Origin: Oscillospiraceae bacterium
Lineage (GTDB): Bacteria > Bacillota > Clostridia > Oscillospirales > Acutalibacteraceae
Length of the DNA stretch: 38,437 bases
Direction of reading: 5' to 3'
NCBI GenBank assembly: GCA_031280825.1
Contig: JAITGE010000035.1
Location: 1-38,437, forward strand
The notes beneath the pieces are model-generated. The model did no database searches. It had not been told where the DNA came from and saw only the letters and a program-made list of their open reading frames with translations. Position numbers and translations under genes: made by a program. Below are positions 4,500 to 38,331 of this stretch, one piece after another; positions within the stretch are counted from its first letter, which is position 1, and the number at the start of each line of letters is the position of its first letter.

Positions 4500-4556
4500 G
4501 TGCACAACAGGCGGTTCAGCACAACGCAAGCATCTAACATTTCATTTGGAGGAGAC

Positions 4557-5927
4557 ATGCTCGCTATTATCGGGGCTTTGCCCATGGAAATTGAAAAAGC
4601 CGCCGCCCTGCTAGCGCACCGCACAGTGGAGCAGGTAGGCTGCGGCACCTTCTTTCGCGGTCAACTGGAAGGCGCGGAGGCTGTCGTCGTTTGCTGCGGG
4701 GTTGGCAAGGTGAACGCCGCGCTTTGCGCCGAAGCGCTGCTGCTGCGGTACCTGCCGGATCTGGTGATCAACGTCGGTGTTGCGGGCGGGCTGGTCGAAG
4801 GGATGCGCGTGGGTGAAATCGCAATTGCCACCGCTGTTGTGCAGCATGATATGGATACAACCGCCATCGGCGACCCGCGCGGCTTTTTAGACCGTCTGCA
4901 CTGTGTTGAAATCCCCACTGCCGCCCCGGCGGCGGAAGCGCTGGAAGCGCTTGCACGGGAACTGGGCTTTGCGGCACGGTGCGGCGTAATCGCTTCAGGG
5001 GATCAATTTATACATTCCGAAGCGCAAAAAGAGGATCTGCGCAGCGCGTTTGGCGCAATCGCCTGCGAAATGGAGGGCGCGGCGGTAGGACAGGTCTGCG
5101 CGCTGCACAGCGTGCCGTTCGCGGTGCTTCGCGCTATTTCCGATGGCGCGGACGACGGGTCACCCCTCGATTTTGCCGCTTTTGCGGCGCAGGCGGCGGA
5201 GCGATCGGCGCAATTGCTGCTTCGCTTCGCGCAGCAATGTGGCGTTCCGCGCAAAAAGCAAGAACGTATCCGAATTGCGCCGTCCATCCTCGCGGGGGAT
5301 TTCGCGCAGCTCGGTTCCGAAGCCCGGCGCATGGAGCAAGCCGGCGCGGATTGGCTGCACCTGGATGTAATGGACGGTCATTTTGTGCCAAACCTCACTT
5401 TTGGCATGCCCGCAATCGCGGCGCTGCGCCCGCACTGCAAGCTGTTTTTTGACGTGCATCTGATGATCGAAACGCCCGAACGCTGGCTGGAGGCGTACAA
5501 AAAAGCCGGCGCGGACAGTATCTGCGTCCATCTGGAGGTCTGCGACACGGAAAAGATCCCGGAAACCCTTGCAAAAATCCGAAGCTTGGGCGCAAGGGCA
5601 GCGCTGAGCATCAAACCCGAGACGCCTGCCGAAGCGCTTTATCCCTACTTGGATCAACTGGATATGGTGCTGGTGATGACGGTTGAGCCCGGCTTTGGCG
5701 GGCAACGCTTTATGGCGGATATGCTGCCCAAAATCAAAGCCCTGCGGGAGGAGATATCCCGCAGAGCCTTGGACGTTATTTTGCAAGCAGACGGCGGAAT
5801 CACGGAAGACACCGCCGCCCTTGCCGCAAAGGCCGGAGCGAATTGCTTCGTCGCCGGCAGCGCAATCTTTAAAGCGAACGACCCCGCGCAAGCAATCCAG
5901 AGTCTGCGTGAAAGAGCAACGCAATGA
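4557..5927 (+). CDS. mtnN-rpe: Fusion: MTA/SAH nucleosidase - ribulose-phosphate 3-epimerase
   Basis: One uninterrupted 456 aa frame encodes two enzymes. Residues 1-230 are 5'-methylthioadenosine/S-adenosylhomocysteine nucleosidase: E11 in GALPMEIE, the CEMEGAAV motif with E173, and D196 in RAISDGADD, numbers almost identical to the E. coli enzyme (E12, E174, D197), so the domain is complete. Residues 238-456 are a complete ribulose-5-phosphate 3-epimerase barrel: APSILAGDFA, metal and catalytic residues H268 and D270 in LHLDVMDG, H301 in FDVHLMIE, VEPGFGGQ and D412 in QADGGI. The linker is under ten residues (GVPRKKQE). The start ATG has a strong GGAGGAG. One releases adenine from MTA/SAH; the other interconverts pentose phosphates. 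Both domains look active. I see no direct metabolic link beyond pentose moieties. Confidence 0.93.
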   Translation: MLAIIGALPMEIEKAAALLAHRTVEQVGCGTFFRGQLEGAEAVVVCCGVGKVNAALCAEALLLRYLPDLVINVGVAGGLVEGMRVGEIAIATAVVQHDMDTTAIGDPRGFLDRLHCVEIPTAAPAAEALEALARELGFAARCGVIASGDQFIHSEAQKEDLRSAFGAIACEMEGAAVGQVCALHSVPFAVLRAISDGADDGSPLDFAAFAAQAAERSAQLLLRFAQQCGVPRKKQERIRIAPSILAGDFAQLGSEARRMEQAGADWLHLDVMDGHFVPNLTFGMPAIAALRPHCKLFFDVHLMIETPERWLEAYKKAGADSICVHLEVCDTEKIPETLAKIRSLGARAALSIKPETPAEALYPYLDQLDMVLVMTVEPGFGGQRFMADMLPKIKALREEISRRALDVILQADGGITEDTAALAAKAGANCFVAGSAIFKANDPAQAIQSLRERATQ

Positions 5928-5962: not shown

Positions 5963-6634
5963 TTATACGCTCACGAACACGTTCCCCGGGCGGAACAACT
6001 CCGCGCAGTCGCCGCTTTCGTTCGCGGGGCAGGCACCGCCTCCCAATTGGGCGAACGCGGTTTCGTCGCCCACACGCTCCCAATGCTCGCGCGTCGCGTC
6101 CGCGGCATAGCTTTCCTCGGTGCAGAGCTTAGCGAATTCCGAAAAAAACTGCTGTACTTTCGGCATCTCCTGCGCCGGATAAAGGAGCAGTCTGTATTTT
6201 TCTTTTTTTGCGTAAAGCGCGCTGGCGGCAATCAAACGGCGGTGCGCAGCAACGCAAGTCTGCGCGTAGCTCCCGGCACAATCCAGCAGCGCGTCCACGC
6301 CCGGGAATTCAAACACAAGCTCCAATTCCTCCTGCTTGCGCAGCGTGCGCTCCGGCGGCATCCCGCTGCTGAAAGGCTCGGCGCAGCCGCCGCGCAGCGT
6401 AAAAAACAAAATGCAGCCCCCTGTGGGGCGCGGCATCGCGTCAATCAGCAATTGCCCTGAAGGATCAATGTCGCAGCCCGTGGTTTCGCGCACACGATCC
6501 AAAATAATCCAGATAACCCTGCGTGTTTCGATGCTGGCATAATCCAGTGCGTCATACGTGATGTCCAAAGCCGCCAAATCCTCCGCGCTCAGCTCAACAA
6601 TCACCTTACGCCTTGTGATGGCTTCAATTCTCAT
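5963..6634 (-). CDS. mecA: Adaptor protein MecA
   Basis: MecA adaptors bind substrates through the N-terminal domain and deliver them to ClpC/ClpP for degradation; in Bacillus they restrain competence. The N-terminus (MRIEAITRRKVIVELSAEDL, then TRRVIWIILDRVRETTGCD and QLLIDAMPRPTGGCILFFT) matches the MecA substrate-binding domain. A low-complexity middle near residues 90-110 leads into the ClpC-binding C-terminal domain. Length 223 aa is normal. The start at 6634 is chosen because GGAGGG lies ten bases upstream and the protein then begins at the conserved MRIE; upstream in-frame codons fall in the promoter. The last part (RPGNVF) is slightly diverged. It is a single gene, convergent with the epimerase fusion. 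Confidence 0.9.
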   Translation of the reverse strand: MRIEAITRRKVIVELSAEDLAALDITYDALDYASIETRRVIWIILDRVRETTGCDIDPSGQLLIDAMPRPTGGCILFFTLRGGCAEPFSSGMPPERTLRKQEELELVFEFPGVDALLDCAGSYAQTCVAAHRRLIAASALYAKKEKYRLLLYPAQEMPKVQQFFSEFAKLCTEESYAADATREHWERVGDETAFAQLGGGACPANESGDCAELFRPGNVFVSV

Positions 6635-6668
6635 GCGGCTGCTGCCCTCCATTCCTGTGGCTAATACC

Positions 6669-6697
6669 ATCATATTAGAAGGACGGGCTGTGTGCAA
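6669..6697 (-). promoter_or_regulatory. Sigma-A type promoter of mecA
   Basis: On the minus strand TTGCAC (6692-6697), a 17 bp spacer and TATGAT (6669-6674). It is divergent from the Rnf-like operon, whose own promoter is not clear; a -10-like TAGAAT at 6721-6726 without a good -35 is the best plus-strand candidate. Confidence 0.75.
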
Positions 6698-6748
6698 TAC
6701 TGAAATGTTGGTAAGCAAACTAGAATTCTCCAAGTGGGAGGGATTCCT

Positions 6749-7741
6749 ATGGATGAAAAACAACCGCGCTGGAAGCAGGTTTTGCGCGAAAGCCGCGCAT
6801 TGCGCCGCTGGAACCTAACTTCGCTGGGGCTTTCGCTGCCCCTGCTTTTCGTCGGCTACTATTATTACGGTTCTTCCGCTTTGCGGCTGGCTGTTATTTC
6901 GGCACTAACCGCGGTCGCGTGCGAGGCGGTTGCGGGTCGGTTGGTGCTGCGCCGCCGCACGGTAGACGACTGGAATGCCGTTGTGATCGGGCTGTGGATC
7001 GCGCTGATGCTTCCGGCAGGTTGCTCGCCGTGGCTGGGCGTGACAGGCGCGGCGTTTGCCGTGCTGGTGGTGAAAATTCCCTTTGGCGGCACGCAAAGCG
7101 CCCCTTTCATTCCGGCTGCGGCAGGCTTTGCGTTTTTGACCGTGTGCTTCCCGGAGCGGGTTTTCGCCTATGCGCCCTCCGCTTTCGTGGATCCTATCGA
7201 CAGCCGCCCGCTTGCGGCGCTTTTGCGCGGCGGGCAATTCACGCCGCGCAACTGGAACATCAGCTCCATCCTGCTGGGGCAAACGGTTGGACCGATGGGC
7301 ACGGGCGGCATCCTGATGATCGCGGTGGTGCTGCTTGTGATGCTCCTGTTGCACGGGCGGCGCTCAGCAGCGCTTGCAAGCTTCGGTTTTTTAGCGATTT
7401 GCGCTTTGACCGCCTACCTCTTCCCGCGTGTGGAAAACAACCGCATCGCTTCCGTCTGGATGGAGCTTTGCTCCGGCAGCCTTGCTTTTGCGGCGGTTTA
7501 TCTTTTGCCCGACCCCGCAAGCCTGCCTGCGCGCTGGTTCACACGGTTGGGCTACGGCGCAATGGCGGGGCTTCTGGCAATGCTTTTGCGCTACTTGGGC
7601 AGCTACGACGAAAACATTTGCTTCGCGCTGCTTTTGGCAAACGCTTCGCTGCCCTTGCTGGAGCGTGCCCGCGCGGAGCTTCGGCACATCCGGGCAGAGC
7701 GCGCTGAAAAGAAGGGAGGTGGCGTAAATGCAAAAGCATGA
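6749..7741 (+). CDS. RnfD/NqrB-like membrane protein, divergent
   Basis: A 330 aa polytopic protein of the NQR2/RnfD/RnfE family. Family landmarks are present: GGTQSAPFIPAAAGFAFL (canonical GG..NPF.PA..G.AFL), LLGQTVGPMGTGGIL (canonical LG...G..GE.S.L), the LPDPAS loop at 253-258 (canonical TDPVTS) and a C-terminal ENICFALLLANASLPLLER. In Rnf/Nqr this subunit carries an FMN covalently linked to a Thr in an SGAT/SSAT-PL motif; here the corresponding stretch reads DPIDSRPLAAL (148-158), with Arg-153 where the Thr should be. At least seven hydrophobic segments can be drawn. The ATG follows GGGAGGG by six bases; an upstream in-frame ATG at 6734 is rejected. It overlaps the RnfE-like gene by 14 bases. 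Family placement is firm, function is not. Confidence 0.85.
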   Translation: MDEKQPRWKQVLRESRALRRWNLTSLGLSLPLLFVGYYYYGSSALRLAVISALTAVACEAVAGRLVLRRRTVDDWNAVVIGLWIALMLPAGCSPWLGVTGAAFAVLVVKIPFGGTQSAPFIPAAAGFAFLTVCFPERVFAYAPSAFVDPIDSRPLAALLRGGQFTPRNWNISSILLGQTVGPMGTGGILMIAVVLLVMLLLHGRRSAALASFGFLAICALTAYLFPRVENNRIASVWMELCSGSLAFAAVYLLPDPASLPARWFTRLGYGAMAGLLAMLLRYLGSYDENICFALLLANASLPLLERARAELRHIRAERAEKKGGGVNAKA

Positions 7742-8675
7742 CGGACCGCTCGTGACGGCAAAGGAGCGCCATTGGCTCGGCGACGCCATTGTGGCAAACC
7801 CCATCCTCGTGCAGGCGGTAGGGCTTGCGCCCGTGGTCGCCGTTGCGACGACCGTGCGCGCGGCGCTGCTGCTTGCCGCGGTCACAGCGGCGCTGCTGCT
7901 CATTTGCGAACCGCTGACCGCCGTTTTACTGCGCAAGCTCCCGGCATGGCTGCGCGTTCCGTGCTATTTCGCCATCGGCTTGGCGTTGGTTGTGCCGCTC
8001 GTGTTTTTATTGGAAAGCATGGACGCGCCCATTGTGGCTTCCATGGATATTTTTCTGCCGCTGTTGGCACTTAACTCTGTCGTTGCCGTGCGCTGCGAGC
8101 GCTATGCGGTGCTGCGTGCTGCACCCGCCGCCTTGCGGGATGCCGCCGCCAACGCCGCCGGCTATGCCGCCGCCGCGCTGCTCATCGGTTTTTTGCGTGA
8201 ATTGCTCGGGCACGGGAGTGTTTGGGGGCGGCACACCGCGGATTGGAACGTGCGCGGGCTGTGGATGCCCTTCGGCGGATTCCTTGTAATCGGTCTGCTG
8301 GCGGCGGGCTTAAAGCTGTTGCTGCGCACGCTCTCGGAGCACGGAATCATTATCGGTGCGCACCGCGCCATGGAGCTTGCTCCCGAAGACCGCGAGGTGC
8401 GCAAGGAAAAAACCCGCAAGCTCTTTGAGGATGCCGAAACCCGCCGCCGTGTGCTGCGCGCGGCAGGTGTGCTGCTCCCCGAAGAGGAAATTCCACCCAC
8501 AACGGAGCCTGCGCCCGCGCCTACGGAAGAGCCTCCCCCGGCGATCGAAAGCGCCGCTCGCGCCGCGCCGAAGCAAGCCGACGCCGTCACGCGCCCGCTC
8601 CCCGACGCCGTGCTTGCCGCGTTGCAATCGCTGGAGGAAATGGATTTGGAAGGAGGCGGCGCGCGTGATACGTGA
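7728..8675 (+). CDS. RnfE/NqrD-like membrane protein lacking cluster cysteines, with acidic Pro-rich tail
   Basis: A 315 aa protein whose first ~210 residues follow the RnfE/NqrD pattern closely: NPILVQAVGLAPVVAV (canonical NPVLVQ.LGLCP.LAV), the second segment LLLICEPLTAVLLRKLP, IFLPLLALNSVVAVRCE (canonical IPLI.VNC.ILGR.E) and GFLRELLGHGS (canonical REVLG.G). The two cysteines that in Rnf/Nqr ligate the intramembrane [2Fe-2S] cluster are Ala-34 and Ser-117. They are 83 residues apart, the same spacing as the NqrD pair. Residues 211-315 are a charged, then Pro/Glu-rich tail not found in normal RnfE, likely cytoplasmic and disordered. A strong GGGAGG precedes the ATG. The gene overlaps both neighbours. 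Confidence 0.85.
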   Translation: MQKHDGPLVTAKERHWLGDAIVANPILVQAVGLAPVVAVATTVRAALLLAAVTAALLLICEPLTAVLLRKLPAWLRVPCYFAIGLALVVPLVFLLESMDAPIVASMDIFLPLLALNSVVAVRCERYAVLRAAPAALRDAAANAAGYAAAALLIGFLRELLGHGSVWGRHTADWNVRGLWMPFGGFLVIGLLAAGLKLLLRTLSEHGIIIGAHRAMELAPEDREVRKEKTRKLFEDAETRRRVLRAAGVLLPEEEIPPTTEPAPAPTEEPPPAIESAARAAPKQADAVTRPLPDAVLAALQSLEEMDLEGGGARDT

Positions 8676-9285
8676 AACCCTGCTTTCGATGTTCAACGCA
8701 TCCCTTTACGCCGTGTTCCTGTATAATTTCATATTCAGCGGCGGCTTGGGCACAACCGAGGTCATTCGCGCGGCAAAAAAGAACGGCGGAATGCTTGCCT
8801 TCGCCGGGCTGATTTCGTTTTTTTCCATGCTGACATCCGCCGTTTCGCGCTTGCTGACCATTTGGATCCCTTCGTTTGAAACGCTCTCGTTTGCGTGGCG
8901 CTGCCTGCTTTTTGGCGGCATATTGCTGGTGCTCTATCTGTTGACCGGGGTAGCGCTGGCGTTCCTGAAAATCCGCGCGCAAGTTTTTTTACTCAAATAT
9001 CTGGGTATGGCGGTGCTTAACACGCTGGTGATGGCAATCCCGTTTTTGAACTTTCAGCGCAGCCACGATTTACCCCGCGCGCTGGCGTTTGGTCTTGGCG
9101 CGGGCATTGCTTTTGCCGGCGCGTCGCTGCTCATCAACAGCGGGATGCACAAGCTCCAGCAAAACAAATCAATCCCCGTGATGTTCACCGGTGTGCCGGC
9201 GACGCTGATCTACACCGGTCTGCTGGCACTTGCCTTCACCGGCTTCACCGGCGCGTCGCTTTTCGGCGCGGAGGGAGGCATCTGA
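8665..9285 (+). CDS. RnfA/NqrE-like membrane protein lacking cluster cysteines
   Basis: A 206 aa protein with six predicted membrane segments. The stretch NFIFSGGLGTTEVIRAAKK (21-39) aligns without gaps to the RnfA pattern NF.LS.FLGICPFLGVSKK, with Thr-31 in place of the cluster cysteine. YLGMAVLNTLVMAIPFLN (112-129) matches YLPLITTNCAVLGVALLN with Thr-120 in place of the second cysteine. GFGLG-like GLGAGIAFAGA (143-153) and the C-terminal LIYTGLLALAFTGFTG (canonical LI.AGLLALAFMGFSG) complete the match. The GTG start at 8665 follows GGAGG by eight bases and overlaps the preceding gene by 11 bases. No further Rnf gene follows; the next gene is convergent trpD. RnfA and RnfE are paralogues, so the A/E assignment rests on the motifs above. 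Confidence 0.85.
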   Translation: MIRETLLSMFNASLYAVFLYNFIFSGGLGTTEVIRAAKKNGGMLAFAGLISFFSMLTSAVSRLLTIWIPSFETLSFAWRCLLFGGILLVLYLLTGVALAFLKIRAQVFLLKYLGMAVLNTLVMAIPFLNFQRSHDLPRALAFGLGAGIAFAGASLLINSGMHKLQQNKSIPVMFTGVPATLIYTGLLALAFTGFTGASLFGAEGGI

Positions 9286-34014: not shown

Positions 34015-36120
34015 TTAATCCTCGCTGCTGCTGGAGGCGACGACCTCGTCCGCTTCCCCTTCGGCGGCTTGCTCCGGCTCATCCTCCAAAAGCGCACGGA
34101 TCGAAAGGCTGACGCGCCGCTTTTCAAAATCGACGCCCACGATTTTCACCTGCACCGTCTGCCCGATCTTCAACTCATCCTGCGGCTTTTCAATGCGGCG
34201 GTTCGCAATTTGAGAAATGTGAATCAGACCGTCCACACCGGGCAAAACGCGGGCAAACGCGCCAAACGTGGTGAAGCTGACAATCTGAGCCTCGACCACA
34301 GAATCCACAGGGTGCTTCTGCCGCAGGATCTCCCAGGGATTGTCCTCCGCCTTGCGGTAGCCCAGGGATATCTTCTTCTTTTCGGGATCAAGCGCCTTAA
34401 CGTATACGTCAATCTCATCCCCCACCTGGATGACCTCGGAAGGATTCTTGATGCGCCCCCAAGAAAGCTCAGAGATATGTACCATGCCGTCCAGCCCGCC
34501 GATATCCACGAACGCGCCATAACTCATAATGGATTTCACCTTGCCGCGGAAGGCTTGCCCCACCTCAGCAGTCGACCAGAAGGCTTCCTGTGCGCTCTTG
34601 CGTTCTTCCTGCTGCACAGCGCGGATCGAGCCAACCGCGCGGCGGCGCTGGCGATCCACCTCTGTGATACGGAAACGCACGGTTTCATGCAGCAAGCCAT
34701 CCAGCGGCATATTGCGCGGCAGACCCGTCAGCGAGCCGGGGATGAACACCCGCGCACCGTTGGCGAAAGCCAGCACACCGCCTTTGATAACCTCCACAAT
34801 CTTGCCCTCAACCGTCACGTCCTCTTCCTGCGAACGGACAATATCCATCCACGCCTTGCCGGCGTCAAAACGCTTTTTGGAAAGCTGCACAGTGCCTTCG
34901 GCGTCGTTCGTTTTCAGGATGATCAGATCCAGCACGTCGCCAAGCTTCAACTCCTTGGAAGGATCGGCGTTCGGATCATTGCTATATTCGCTCACGGCAA
35001 CATAGCCCGTCTGCTTCCGCCCGATATCCACCTGGATTTCGGAAGGATTGACGGCCGTAACGATGCCTTTCACTTTTTGATCGCTGTTCATGCTCTTAAG
35101 CGATTCTTCCAGCTGCGCGCTGAAGGAATCCTCTTCGCCCGCAGGCTCAACCGCCGCGAGTGCTTCTTCCACCGGTGCCGCCGCTTCAGCCGCAGGCATT
35201 TCATCTGCGATTGCTTCAGCACCGGAACGCTCAGGAAGGGTTTCGATTTCTTGAATGCTTTCGTTGGTCAGATCGGACATTGTTTTCAGTACCTCCTTTA
35301 TTGTGCGCGCCGGAGTGGACGCGCCCGCCGTGCAGCCAATGGTGCGGAACGATTGCAGCTCTTCCGCCAACGGTAATATCCCATCGCACCCTTCAACGAG
35401 ATAGGAAGGACACAATTCACCGCACACCGACAGCAGCTTAGCCGTGTTAGAGCTAAGTCGGTCGCCTATGACGACCATAGCATCGCAGCTGGCGGCCAGC
35501 TGCCGCGCTTCCTCCTGCCTTGATTGGGTTGCACTGCATATTGTATCAAATAAAATCACGTTTGTACAGAGTAAATTTAACTTTTTTATACTTTTTTTCC
35601 ATGCATCCAAATGGAAGGTGGTCTGAGCAACGACCAAGAGCGGCGAATCGCGCCAATTTTCGTTCCGCTCCAGCAAAAACTCCAGTTCCTCCGCGTTTTG
35701 CGCGGTCGCCGAAGCACCTGCCGCGTAGCTACGGATGCCAATCACCTCCGGGTGCGCCGGGTCGCCCAAAACCAAAAGCGGCACATCCGGCGCGGAATGC
35801 GCCGCGACGATGCGATGAATCTTGCGCACAAACGGGCAGGTCGCGTCGCAGCAAGGCAGCCCAAGCCGCTCAATTTCAGCGTTGATTTCCCGCGGCACGC
35901 CATGAGCACGGATCACGACCGTCTGCCCCGGCTTCGCCTCTGCGGGTTCGTCAATCACGCAGGCGCCTTGCGCTTTAAGCTTCCCCGTTACCTGCCGGTT
36001 ATGGATCAGCTCCCCCAGCAGCACCACCGGCACACCATCACGCAACAAGCCCTCTGTCATTTCCACCGCGCGGCGCACGCCAAAGCAAAAGCCCGCCGTC
36101 TTCGCCAAAAGAATCGGCAC
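34015..36120 (-). CDS. ispH-rpsA: IspH (HMBPP reductase) - ribosomal protein S1 fusion
   Basis: Residues 1-280 are IspH, the last enzyme of the MEP isoprenoid pathway, with cluster ligands C12 (GFCFGVRRA), C95 (CDATCPF) and C195 (DTICSATQSRQ), and H40, HPEV and QTTF around the substrate. Residues 281-701 are an S1-like protein with four S1 RNA-binding domains (about 347-416, 434-500, 520-590, 606-675) joined by an acidic, Ala/Glu-rich linker. This fusion is known in Clostridia. A strong internal Shine-Dalgarno and ATG at the junction suggest free S1 is also made. Last gene of cmk-plsC-ispH/rpsA, beginning four bases after plsC. Confidence 0.96.
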   Translation of the reverse strand: MPILLAKTAGFCFGVRRAVEMTEGLLRDGVPVVLLGELIHNRQVTGKLKAQGACVIDEPAEAKPGQTVVIRAHGVPREINAEIERLGLPCCDATCPFVRKIHRIVAAHSAPDVPLLVLGDPAHPEVIGIRSYAAGASATAQNAEELEFLLERNENWRDSPLLVVAQTTFHLDAWKKSIKKLNLLCTNVILFDTICSATQSRQEEARQLAASCDAMVVIGDRLSSNTAKLLSVCGELCPSYLVEGCDGILPLAEELQSFRTIGCTAGASTPARTIKEVLKTMSDLTNESIQEIETLPERSGAEAIADEMPAAEAAAPVEEALAAVEPAGEEDSFSAQLEESLKSMNSDQKVKGIVTAVNPSEIQVDIGRKQTGYVAVSEYSNDPNADPSKELKLGDVLDLIILKTNDAEGTVQLSKKRFDAGKAWMDIVRSQEEDVTVEGKIVEVIKGGVLAFANGARVFIPGSLTGLPRNMPLDGLLHETVRFRITEVDRQRRRAVGSIRAVQQEERKSAQEAFWSTAEVGQAFRGKVKSIMSYGAFVDIGGLDGMVHISELSWGRIKNPSEVIQVGDEIDVYVKALDPEKKKISLGYRKAEDNPWEILRQKHPVDSVVEAQIVSFTTFGAFARVLPGVDGLIHISQIANRRIEKPQDELKIGQTVQVKIVGVDFEKRRVSLSIRALLEDEPEQAAEGEADEVVASSSSED
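35278..35299 (-). promoter_or_regulatory. Internal ribosome binding site and ATG for the S1 part
   Basis: AAAGGAGG (35292-35299) precedes an in-frame ATG (35280-35278, M281) by 11 bases, exactly where the IspH domain ends. Initiation here would give a separate 421 aa S1 protein. Confidence 0.6.
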
Positions 36121-37529: not shown

Positions 37530-37629
37530 GCAACCCGAACGCAAAAACGCCAACGCCAACGCGCTCACGGCAAAAGCACTTACTTTTTCTTCACCCCAAG
37601 AAATGGTATACTATATCGGGGTGAGAGAT

Positions 37630-38331
37630 TTGAAAATACAAAAATTAATCGAACAGGCAGAGAAAATCAGCGACCCGCGGCGGCAATATGGGTATTTGCA
37701 GCACAAATTGGCAACAATTATCGTCATCGCGTTTTGCGCAATTATCTGCGGAGCTGAGGATTATGAGGACATCGAAAGCTTTGGAAACAGTCGAAAAGAG
37801 TGGCTTAAAGAATTTCTTGCGCTCGAAAACGGTATCCCTGACAAGGACACATTCCGGCGTGTGTTTGAGCGGTTGAATCCATCGGAGGTCGCCGAATGCC
37901 TATACAGTTGGTTGGGGAACCGCGAGATAAAAGGAAAAACCGTAAACATTGACGGAAAAACAATTTGCGGCAGCAAAAATGCGGAACACGGCGCGTATCA
38001 TGTGGTTTCGGCGTGGGTGAGCGAGAATCAAATCACGCTCGGTGAAATTGTTGTTGACGAGAAAAGCAACGAGATCACCGCGATTCCGAAATTGTTGGAT
38101 TTGGTAGCTGTAGAAGGCGCGGTCGTGACGATCGATGCGATGGGGACGCAGACCAAAATTGCTGAGAAAATCATCAAAAAGAAAGCGGATTACTGCCTTG
38201 CGCTGAAAGGAAATCATTCAGATTTGCATGATGATGTGCGATTTTATTTTGAAAATCAGGAAGTAAATGACAAAATCACAAACCGCGAAAAAGACCACGG
38301 AAGAATCGAAAAGCGGGAATATTTTTGGTGA
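37630..38331 (+). CDS. ISAs1-family transposase, C-terminally truncated
   Basis: DDE-type transposase related to the H-repeat proteins. It starts KIQKLIEQAEKISDPRR, then HKLATIIVIAFCAIICGAEDYEDIE, LPDK-like IPDKDTFRRVFERL, and the catalytic strands with Asp in VNIDGKTICGS and TIDAMGTQ, then DYCLALKGNH and KDHGRIEKREYF. Intact members run to roughly 370 aa; this one stops near 234-242, losing the third catalytic acidic region. The stop follows a five-T run; one extra T would restore the family-like YFLV. A -10-like TATACT (37607-37612) overlaps an in-frame ATG at 37603, so the TTG at 37630, preceded by GGGGTGAGAG, is taken as start. The DNA is clearly AT-richer than its surroundings. No terminal inverted repeats could be set. 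Confidence 0.75.
   Translation: MKIQKLIEQAEKISDPRRQYGYLQHKLATIIVIAFCAIICGAEDYEDIESFGNSRKEWLKEFLALENGIPDKDTFRRVFERLNPSEVAECLYSWLGNREIKGKTVNIDGKTICGSKNAEHGAYHVVSAWVSENQITLGEIVVDEKSNEITAIPKLLDLVAVEGAVVTIDAMGTQTKIAEKIIKKKADYCLALKGNHSDLHDDVRFYFENQEVNDKITNREKDHGRIEKREYFW

Follow-up and report, generated by a model that had tools for sequence, protein, structure and literature searches.

What can the membrane core of an Rnf complex do once its known redox centres are gone? The question is raised by three overlapping genes, here called the D-E-A trio, in a contig of an Oscillospiraceae bacterium. The window, that is, the whole stretch analysed (38,437 nucleotides), is one entire contig (G000:C21; G, C and L numbers are our handles for genomes, contigs and loci) of an assembly of 1.90 Mb in 53 contigs that is 95.6% complete. 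A sequence-only reading had aligned the three genes to RnfD, RnfE and RnfA, and its coordinates and frames proved right, all three proteins scoring above the Pfam gathering cut-offs. The D-like residues are numbered here from an in-frame GTG at 6734. The features of the trio are as follows.

6736..6742, forward strand: Shine-Dalgarno sequence GGGAGGG of the D-like gene
6749..7741, forward strand: D-like gene (RnfD/NqrB family, PF03116), ATG start, with the in-frame GTG at 6734
7714..7719, forward strand: Shine-Dalgarno sequence GGGAGG of the E-like gene, within the D-like gene
7728..8675, forward strand: E-like gene (RnfE/NqrD family, PF02508), 315 amino acids
7827..7829, forward strand: E-like codon 34, Ala, at the site of the RnfE cluster ligand C25
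8076..8078, forward strand: E-like codon 117, Ser, at the site of the RnfE cluster ligand C108
8094..8099, forward strand: E-like codons 123-124, Cys123 and Glu124, the latter equivalent to the Na+-gating E115
8650..8656, forward strand: Shine-Dalgarno sequence AAGGAGG of the A-like gene, within the E-like gene
8665..9285, forward strand: A-like gene (RnfA/NqrE family, PF02508), 206 amino acids, GTG start
8755..8760, forward strand: A-like codons 31-32, Thr31 at the site of the RnfA ligand C25, followed by Glu32
9022..9024, forward strand: A-like codon 120, Thr, at the site of the RnfA cluster ligand C113

Cluster and flavin positions of the trio

The [2Fe-2S] ligand sites were mapped by profile alignment to the solved RnfA and RnfE chains and by alignment with 21 canonical D/E/A sets. 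Of these sets, 17 come from genomes that also have the trio, the window's among them, and four from other genomes of the order. None of the four ligand cysteines is present in the window, compared with four of four in 21/21 canonical controls, which bears out the replacements first noticed by eye (Ala34 and Ser117 in the E-like protein, Thr31 and Thr120 in the A-like protein). The 83-residue spacing of the two E-like sites, also noticed then, matches C25-C108 of Acetobacterium woodii RnfE, and the A-like sites are 89 residues apart vs. 88. Comparison of the sequences supports the conclusion that an intramembrane iron-sulfur cluster would not be ligated in the known way by the trio.

The cysteine losses were then counted over the clade of the trio. 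Among its 99 distinct members, 38 carry zero, 60 one, and only L200 two cysteines at the four sites, while none carries three or four; cysteine occurs at E-like position 34 in 51/99 and at A-like position 120 in 11/99. As E-like Cys34 is retained in 49/80 trio members of the first tree, the window, with all four sites lost, stands at one extreme of a range. A search for the same trio in other genomes, as the sequence-only reading had proposed, showed it in many relatives; 60/99 members keep one ligand cysteine and 21/99 are preceded by an RnfC-like gene. The motif CPFLG of canonical RnfA reads [S/T/D]-E-x-x-R in most of the window's branch. In other members of the order, such as L192, L194, L198 and L203, A-like position 32 is occupied by Arg, Val or Thr; members of this type often have Cys at A-like position 120 and none at the other sites, and the replacements differ between branches.

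The proposed lack of a flavin site held for the window, where Pro159 stands in the column of the flavin mononucleotide (FMN) threonine, possibly one column off, but less well for the 80 trio members, in which this column is Ser in 69, Thr in 5, Ala in 3, Pro in 2 and Asn in 1; the 21 canonical sets have Thr in 18 and Ser in 3. RnfD N123 of A. woodii is a riboflavin ligand according to the accessible part of Kumar et al. (PMC11889175). The corresponding column is Ile126 in the window, Val, Ser, Leu or Ile in 60/67 of the window's branch, Asn or His in 13/13 RnfC-bearing members (first tree), and Asn in 21/21 canonical sets. A tie between loss of the riboflavin ligand and loss of RnfC was considered and rejected, as it holds in the window's branch but fails in a second RnfC-less group, of which 8/10 retain Asn or His; flavin loss is therefore not uniform over the family.

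Family assignment was evaluated with profiles and predicted structures. The D-like protein scored 183.4 bits against PF03116 (NQR2_RnfD_RnfE; gathering cut-off 27.7), its only Pfam domain, with no NAD-binding domain PF00175 found, and the two PF02508 (Rnf-Nqr) proteins scored 95.9 and 51.6 bits (cut-off 23.8). The NCBIfam rnf cut-offs were missed (rnfA 49.1 of 229.3, rnfD 115.2 of 207.05, rnfE 76.9 of 213.4 bits), and so were the nqr cut-offs (best nqrB 74.1 of 414, nqrD 69 of 235, nqrE 26 of 247.55 bits), the rnf models outscoring the nqr models. Predicted single-chain structures gave an RnfA/NqrE fold for the A-like and an RnfE/NqrD fold for the E-like protein; when these were submitted to VIA-align, the rows well above background were Rnf and Nqr chains, and no other transporter family was prominent among the rows, which excludes none. 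PADLOC gave no match. We class the trio as a variant form of Rnf/Nqr rather than as an Rnf complex.

The E-like protein consists of a fold core (about residues 11-202) and, from residue 203 on, a charged tail of 113 residues at the C-terminus, which corresponds to 8334-8672 of the window. In the window's branch these tails are long, charged and variable (54-494 residues from residue 203), with a median of 154 residues in the 67-member branch, against 12 for RnfC-bearing members and 32 for canonical RnfE. A short acidic helix-like stretch that ends some of the tails is a possible docking motif.

A conserved clade and its relation to canonical Rnf

A FastTree tree built from 121 D+E+A concatenations (716 columns) split canonical from Rnf-like sets, with a support of 1.0 for the Rnf-like clade (100 rows, 99 distinct, L210 repeating L087). 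A D-like profile scan of the named genome collection yielded 132 relatives, the best 80 of which were analysed; their titles are mostly Oscillospiraceae, Ruminococcaceae, Clostridia or similar, a few just Bacillota or 'uncultured bacterium', and several mention herbivore guts. All three genes are open in 72/80 of these named loci and the other eight reach a contig end. Non-canonical loci made up 30/33 of the A-type loci from whole-genome searches. The A-like profile, at E 1e-25, found matches in 11 of 291 sampled genomes of the class. Seven are non-canonical and belong to the window's order, presumably Oscillospirales (its own genome plus six others), and of the other four the three inspected (L165-L167) are canonical by residues; at this threshold no trio member outside the order was found in the sample.

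The D-like and E-like genes overlap by 14 nt and the E-like and A-like genes by 11 nt. Ratios of nonsynonymous to synonymous substitution rates (dN/dS, Nei-Gojobori) ranged from 0.030 to 0.251 in 39 comparisons, i.e., the three genes of 13 close locus pairs, those of the more divergent pairs being rough because several dS values exceed 1; the A-like gene had the lowest ratio in 10/13 pairs. The trio is under purifying selection, and the earlier impression of genes selected rather than decaying, taken from their ribosome binding sites and overlaps, is upheld by these ratios and by the open frames of relatives. These results indicated that the trio is a real, conserved, redox-stripped Rnf paralogue, neither chance nor decay. 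No account of a cysteine-free Rnf D-E-A trio was found in the titles, abstract openings and passages covered from an open-licence library, from which most subscription papers are absent.

RnfB, RnfC and RnfG had been read as absent from the trio operon, and indeed no RnfC_N or FMN_bind match occurs on the window's contig and rnfB lies elsewhere. Whether these subunits, encoded elsewhere in the genome, might form a normal complex with the trio received a divided answer: they are found on contig C3, but in a canonical rnf locus (two PF02508 genes, RnfC_N, rnfB, FMN_bind and D) with its own D, E and A. This locus holds the sole RnfC_N and FMN_bind matches of the genome and the sole listed rnfB over the cut-off; FMN_bind, the NqrC/RnfG domain, was found on C3 only.

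Among the relatives, at least 16 further genomes with the trio also have canonical Rnf. Thirteen congeners were sampled for trio vs. canonical Rnf, and 4/13, namely G001 (90% complete), G003 (70%), G011 (86%) and G012 (66%), carry the trio while canonical Rnf was not detected in them: their PF02508 matches are low-scoring and of the trio type, each has one D match, and neither rnfB above the cut-off nor FMN_bind was found. In G042, a 98% complete genome of another family with the RnfC-bearing member L048, the canonical PF02508 pair, rnfB over the cut-off, FMN_bind and ApbE were all not found; ApbE was likewise not found in the trio-type genomes G001, G003, G010, G011 and G027. The trio without canonical Rnf in four congeners argues against service in a normal complex; missing data could account for single Rnf-less genomes, less easily for all together.

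The four Rnf-less congeners have RnfC_N matches above the Pfam cut-off (50-52 bits). They are separate proteins of about 450-460 residues that start at an intact GxGGAGFP motif and lie outside any rnf locus.

L214:2474-3829: PduS-like RnfC relative
L215:2258-3613: PduS-like RnfC relative
L216:1136-2515: PduS-like RnfC relative
L217:880-2235: PduS-like RnfC relative

We take these four proteins to be PduS, and a neighbour gene in L215 and L217 to be presumably PduL; read in this way, the genes suggest microcompartment loci.

Ion-related residues and possible functions

The accessible part of Kumar et al. places Na+ in the RnfA/E dimer of A. woodii, attracted by the reduced cluster, with an Arg67-Glu115 gate in RnfE (PMC11889175). 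The equivalent of Arg67, E-like Arg76, is found in 67/67 of the window's branch and 8/13 RnfC-bearing members; that of Glu115, E-like Glu124, is Glu in 65 and Asp in two of the window's branch and Glu in 2/13 RnfC-bearing members; and that of RnfA Asn112 (Asn119) is kept in 80/80. Further, A-like Glu32 (67/67 of the branch; Pro in 21/21 canonical sets), A-like Pro126 (67/67) and E-like Cys123 (66/67; Ala in 21/21 canonical sets) are absent or rare in canonical and RnfC-bearing members. D-like Pro116 and Arg232 are present in 67/67 of the branch and absent from most or all canonical D, and are common to 11/13 and 12/13 RnfC-bearing members, respectively.

We tentatively favour, at somewhat less than even confidence, the reading that the trio is a selectively maintained membrane module derived from the Rnf D-E-A core, cofactor-free and ion-coupled, with no transmembrane electron transfer in the known way. 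Ion movement would fit both the kept E-like Arg76-Glu124 pair and the gained A-like Glu32. Lying one residue from the lost RnfA cysteine, Glu32 could supply a fixed carboxylate in the electrostatic place of the reduced cluster, and since Arg76-Glu124 and Asn119 are kept and Glu32 is fixed, a redox switch might not be needed for a cation (Na+ or H+) to bind. Inward and outward movement would then be driven by an ion gradient or a bound partner, not by electrons, and might be passed on to a solute, the D family being described as related to ammonium/urea transporters, or alternatively to a protein of the envelope outside the cytoplasm, either DUF4015 or, in one branch, a CAP-domain protein. The step from residues to ion-coupled transport, or to force on DUF4015, is one that we infer. 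By analogy, the Na+ site of MtrE would make such use of a similar fold possible: in the accessible part of its description MtrE is said to resemble NqrE, and its Na+ is bound by Asp and Ser at a place that has no redox centre (PMC12774963). The fullest form of the proposal, in which an electron-driven pump became an electron-free ion-coupled machine in a large group of gut bacteria, with a permanent Glu32 for the switchable charge of [2Fe-2S], the Na+ gate kept, and a gradient used or sensed to move a solute or drive a DUF4015 or CAP-domain partner, is speculative and rather doubtful.

Several observations weigh against the favoured ion-coupled module. The Na+ route itself, through RnfA/E or through RnfD, is disputed in the accessible parts of two reports (PMC11889175, PMC12174285). 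Nearly all of the branch has lost the equivalents of RnfA E88, Y105, T110, T111 and R154, and most relatives have lost that of K32, which the window keeps; the A-like protein of the window retains Lys38 and Tyr112. In another branch, position 32 is Arg, Val, Thr or Ile in ten RnfC-less members; Glu32, limited to one branch, cannot explain the whole family; conversely, the RnfC-bearing L047 and L208 also have Glu there. The four Rnf-less congeners are 66-90% complete, and their PduS-like RnfC relative may be a partner. Finally, DUF4015 is not beside the window trio, the copy of this genome being on contig C23.

Unlikely, though with several residues in its favour, is a trio that is still redox-active with other cofactors, i.e., thiols (E-like Cys123, D-like Cys138), a non-covalent flavin in D, or a quinone; on this reading the cluster would have been exchanged for something else and not given up. 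The near-invariant Cys123 (66/67 of the branch vs. 0/21 canonical) and the E-like Cys34 of 49/80 members are consistent with it, and RnfC-bearing members encode RnfC-like proteins with two 4Fe-4S motifs. The D of the 13 RnfC-bearing members keep riboflavin ligands (N126 in 11/13, and Asp260, the probable D249 equivalent, in 13/13), and Ser, the FMN-site residue of most relatives, can be flavinylated in another family, as far as the accessible part of that report goes (PMC10979944). However, the window has no E-like Cys34, FMN Thr or Ser, or riboflavin Asn, and no RnfC, RnfG or RnfB gene beside the trio; no electron donor gene adjoining it was recognised by Pfam, and the trio type is present in the six genomes listed above in which ApbE was not found.

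It is also improbable that the D-like protein is the working part, as a channel or transporter for a solute, and that E and A serve it as a platform for structure or gating. The invariant Pro116 and Arg232, missing from most or all canonical D, and the lost riboflavin-ligand residue in D of the window's branch point that way, but the neighbouring genes suggest no substrate. Very unlikely is an accessory or regulatory scaffold that joins the canonical Rnf subunits, or replaces Rnf D, E and A under some condition: canonical Rnf does accompany the trio in the window's genome and at least 16 others, yet the four congeners and G042 have the trio type with no canonical PF02508 pair, rnfB over the cut-off or FMN_bind, and a role solely inside canonical Rnf was judged unlikely on account of these Rnf-less genomes. 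A decaying paralogue without function, which the lost cofactor sites and partner genes might suggest, is already contradicted by the low dN/dS (0.03-0.25), the open frames, the conserved order and location and the new invariant residues, and is hardly credible.

Compared with known systems, the trio shares the D/E/A families and the A and E folds with the Rnf complex (RnfABCDGE; A. woodii 9eri, Clostridium tetanomorphum 7zc6), and the window's branch preserves the RnfE Arg67-Glu115 pair and RnfA Asn112, whereas the [2Fe-2S] ligands, the FMN threonine, the riboflavin Asn and adjoining RnfB, RnfC and RnfG are missing, and Glu32, Cys123 and the long E tail are new. Na+-NQR (NqrABCDEF) has NqrD/E-type folds like those of the trio, and its NqrB is of the D-like family by sequence, but the trio scores higher on rnf than on nqr profiles and has lost the four ligands. 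The NQR/RNF-like two-subunit systems, in the accessible parts of their descriptions (PMC8238504; PMC10979944), are likewise partial Rnf-type loci with a D-like protein without the flavinylation threonine; they consist of only two subunits, an RnfD-like protein fused to an NAD-binding domain and an RnfG-like flavoprotein, whereas the trio includes E and A, and its D gave no match to an NAD domain. The Mtr Na+-translocating methyltransferase (MtrE/MtrCDE) is coupled to methyl transfer in what is accessible of its description (PMC12774963), and its structural Z to the trio is low and may reflect just a common arrangement.

Binding or movement of Na+ or H+ by the D-E-A core would mean that the ion path can be separated from electron transfer, and a selected core without redox sites would offer a direct test of the disputed RnfA/E vs. 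RnfD path. If true, the favoured module would also show how a redox pump can turn into a membrane machine without redox function, RnfC-bearing members being possible living intermediates. Many gut bacteria carry this second copy of three membrane parts of a pump, the pump body seemingly having been reused, and if annotated by family name, these genes would be called subunits of Rnf, and energy conservation by Rnf would be overstated for these bacteria.

Neighbouring genes and history of the locus

Genes around the trio were compared among the loci. Upstream of the window trio lies one further feature.

5963..6763, reverse strand: divergent MecA-family gene (PF05389), true start uncertain

This frequent neighbour, not claimed as part of a complex, is found within 3.5 kb upstream in 47/67 loci with enough sequence, and a gene of the rpe/nucleosidase cluster in 58/67; the latter cluster mixes two families because the window frame contains both. 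At 4533-5927 of the forward strand, the window has a single frame in which a nucleosidase (PF01048) and a ribulose-phosphate 3-epimerase (PF00834) domain both occur, either as a fusion or through loss of a stop; the congener locus L062 has two adjacent genes of the cluster instead.

After the trio, a DUF4015-type gene (PF13200, putative glycosyl hydrolase) follows in 37/80 named and 14/20 further loci, as assigned by Pfam on three genes and by blastp for the remainder. One or more extra genes lie between D and E, the slot of rnfG in the canonical set, in 9/80 loci (L084, L091, L098, L101, L103, L109, L110, L114 and L120); the sole one tested, L042:5418-6188 (same locus as L109), encodes a protein that has a CAP domain (PF00188) and starts like a lipoprotein.

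Directly upstream of the trio, an RnfC-like gene is found in 9/80 named loci, four first-set loci and 8/20 others, in total 21/99 members. Four of these genes were inspected.

L048:6532-7851: RnfC-like gene
L044:9758-11077: RnfC-like gene
L046:6331-7992: RnfC-like gene
L047:3130-4383: RnfC-like gene

By eye, each of the four proteins has two 4Fe-4S motifs (one imperfect in L047) and no GxGGAGFP motif. Against PF01512 (FMN domain, cut-off 31.2), the two that were run scored 65.8 (L048) and 30.8 bits (L044). The four have a degraded NADH/FMN site, and the D-E-A genes alongside have no rnfG between D and E.

Tree parsimony suggests two losses of RnfC, in a clade of 69 rows (68 distinct, support 0.90) and in one of 10 (support 0.28, weak). 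A rule that Glu32 was gained where RnfC was lost was perfect in the named set, in which nine RnfC loci are without Glu32 and 63/63 readable RnfC-less loci have it (eight unreadable), but was rejected as it failed on wider sampling, with the 10 RnfC-less members of the other branch without Glu32 and L047 and L208 with both an RnfC-like gene and Glu.

Toward the far end of the window, the open frame at 37603-38331 (forward strand) lies at the contig end and presumably encodes an insertion sequence transposase, which may be the reason that the contig breaks there. A 701-amino-acid open frame at 34015-36120 (reverse strand) has a start that we take to resemble IspH, its length allowing a second domain such as ribosomal protein S1.

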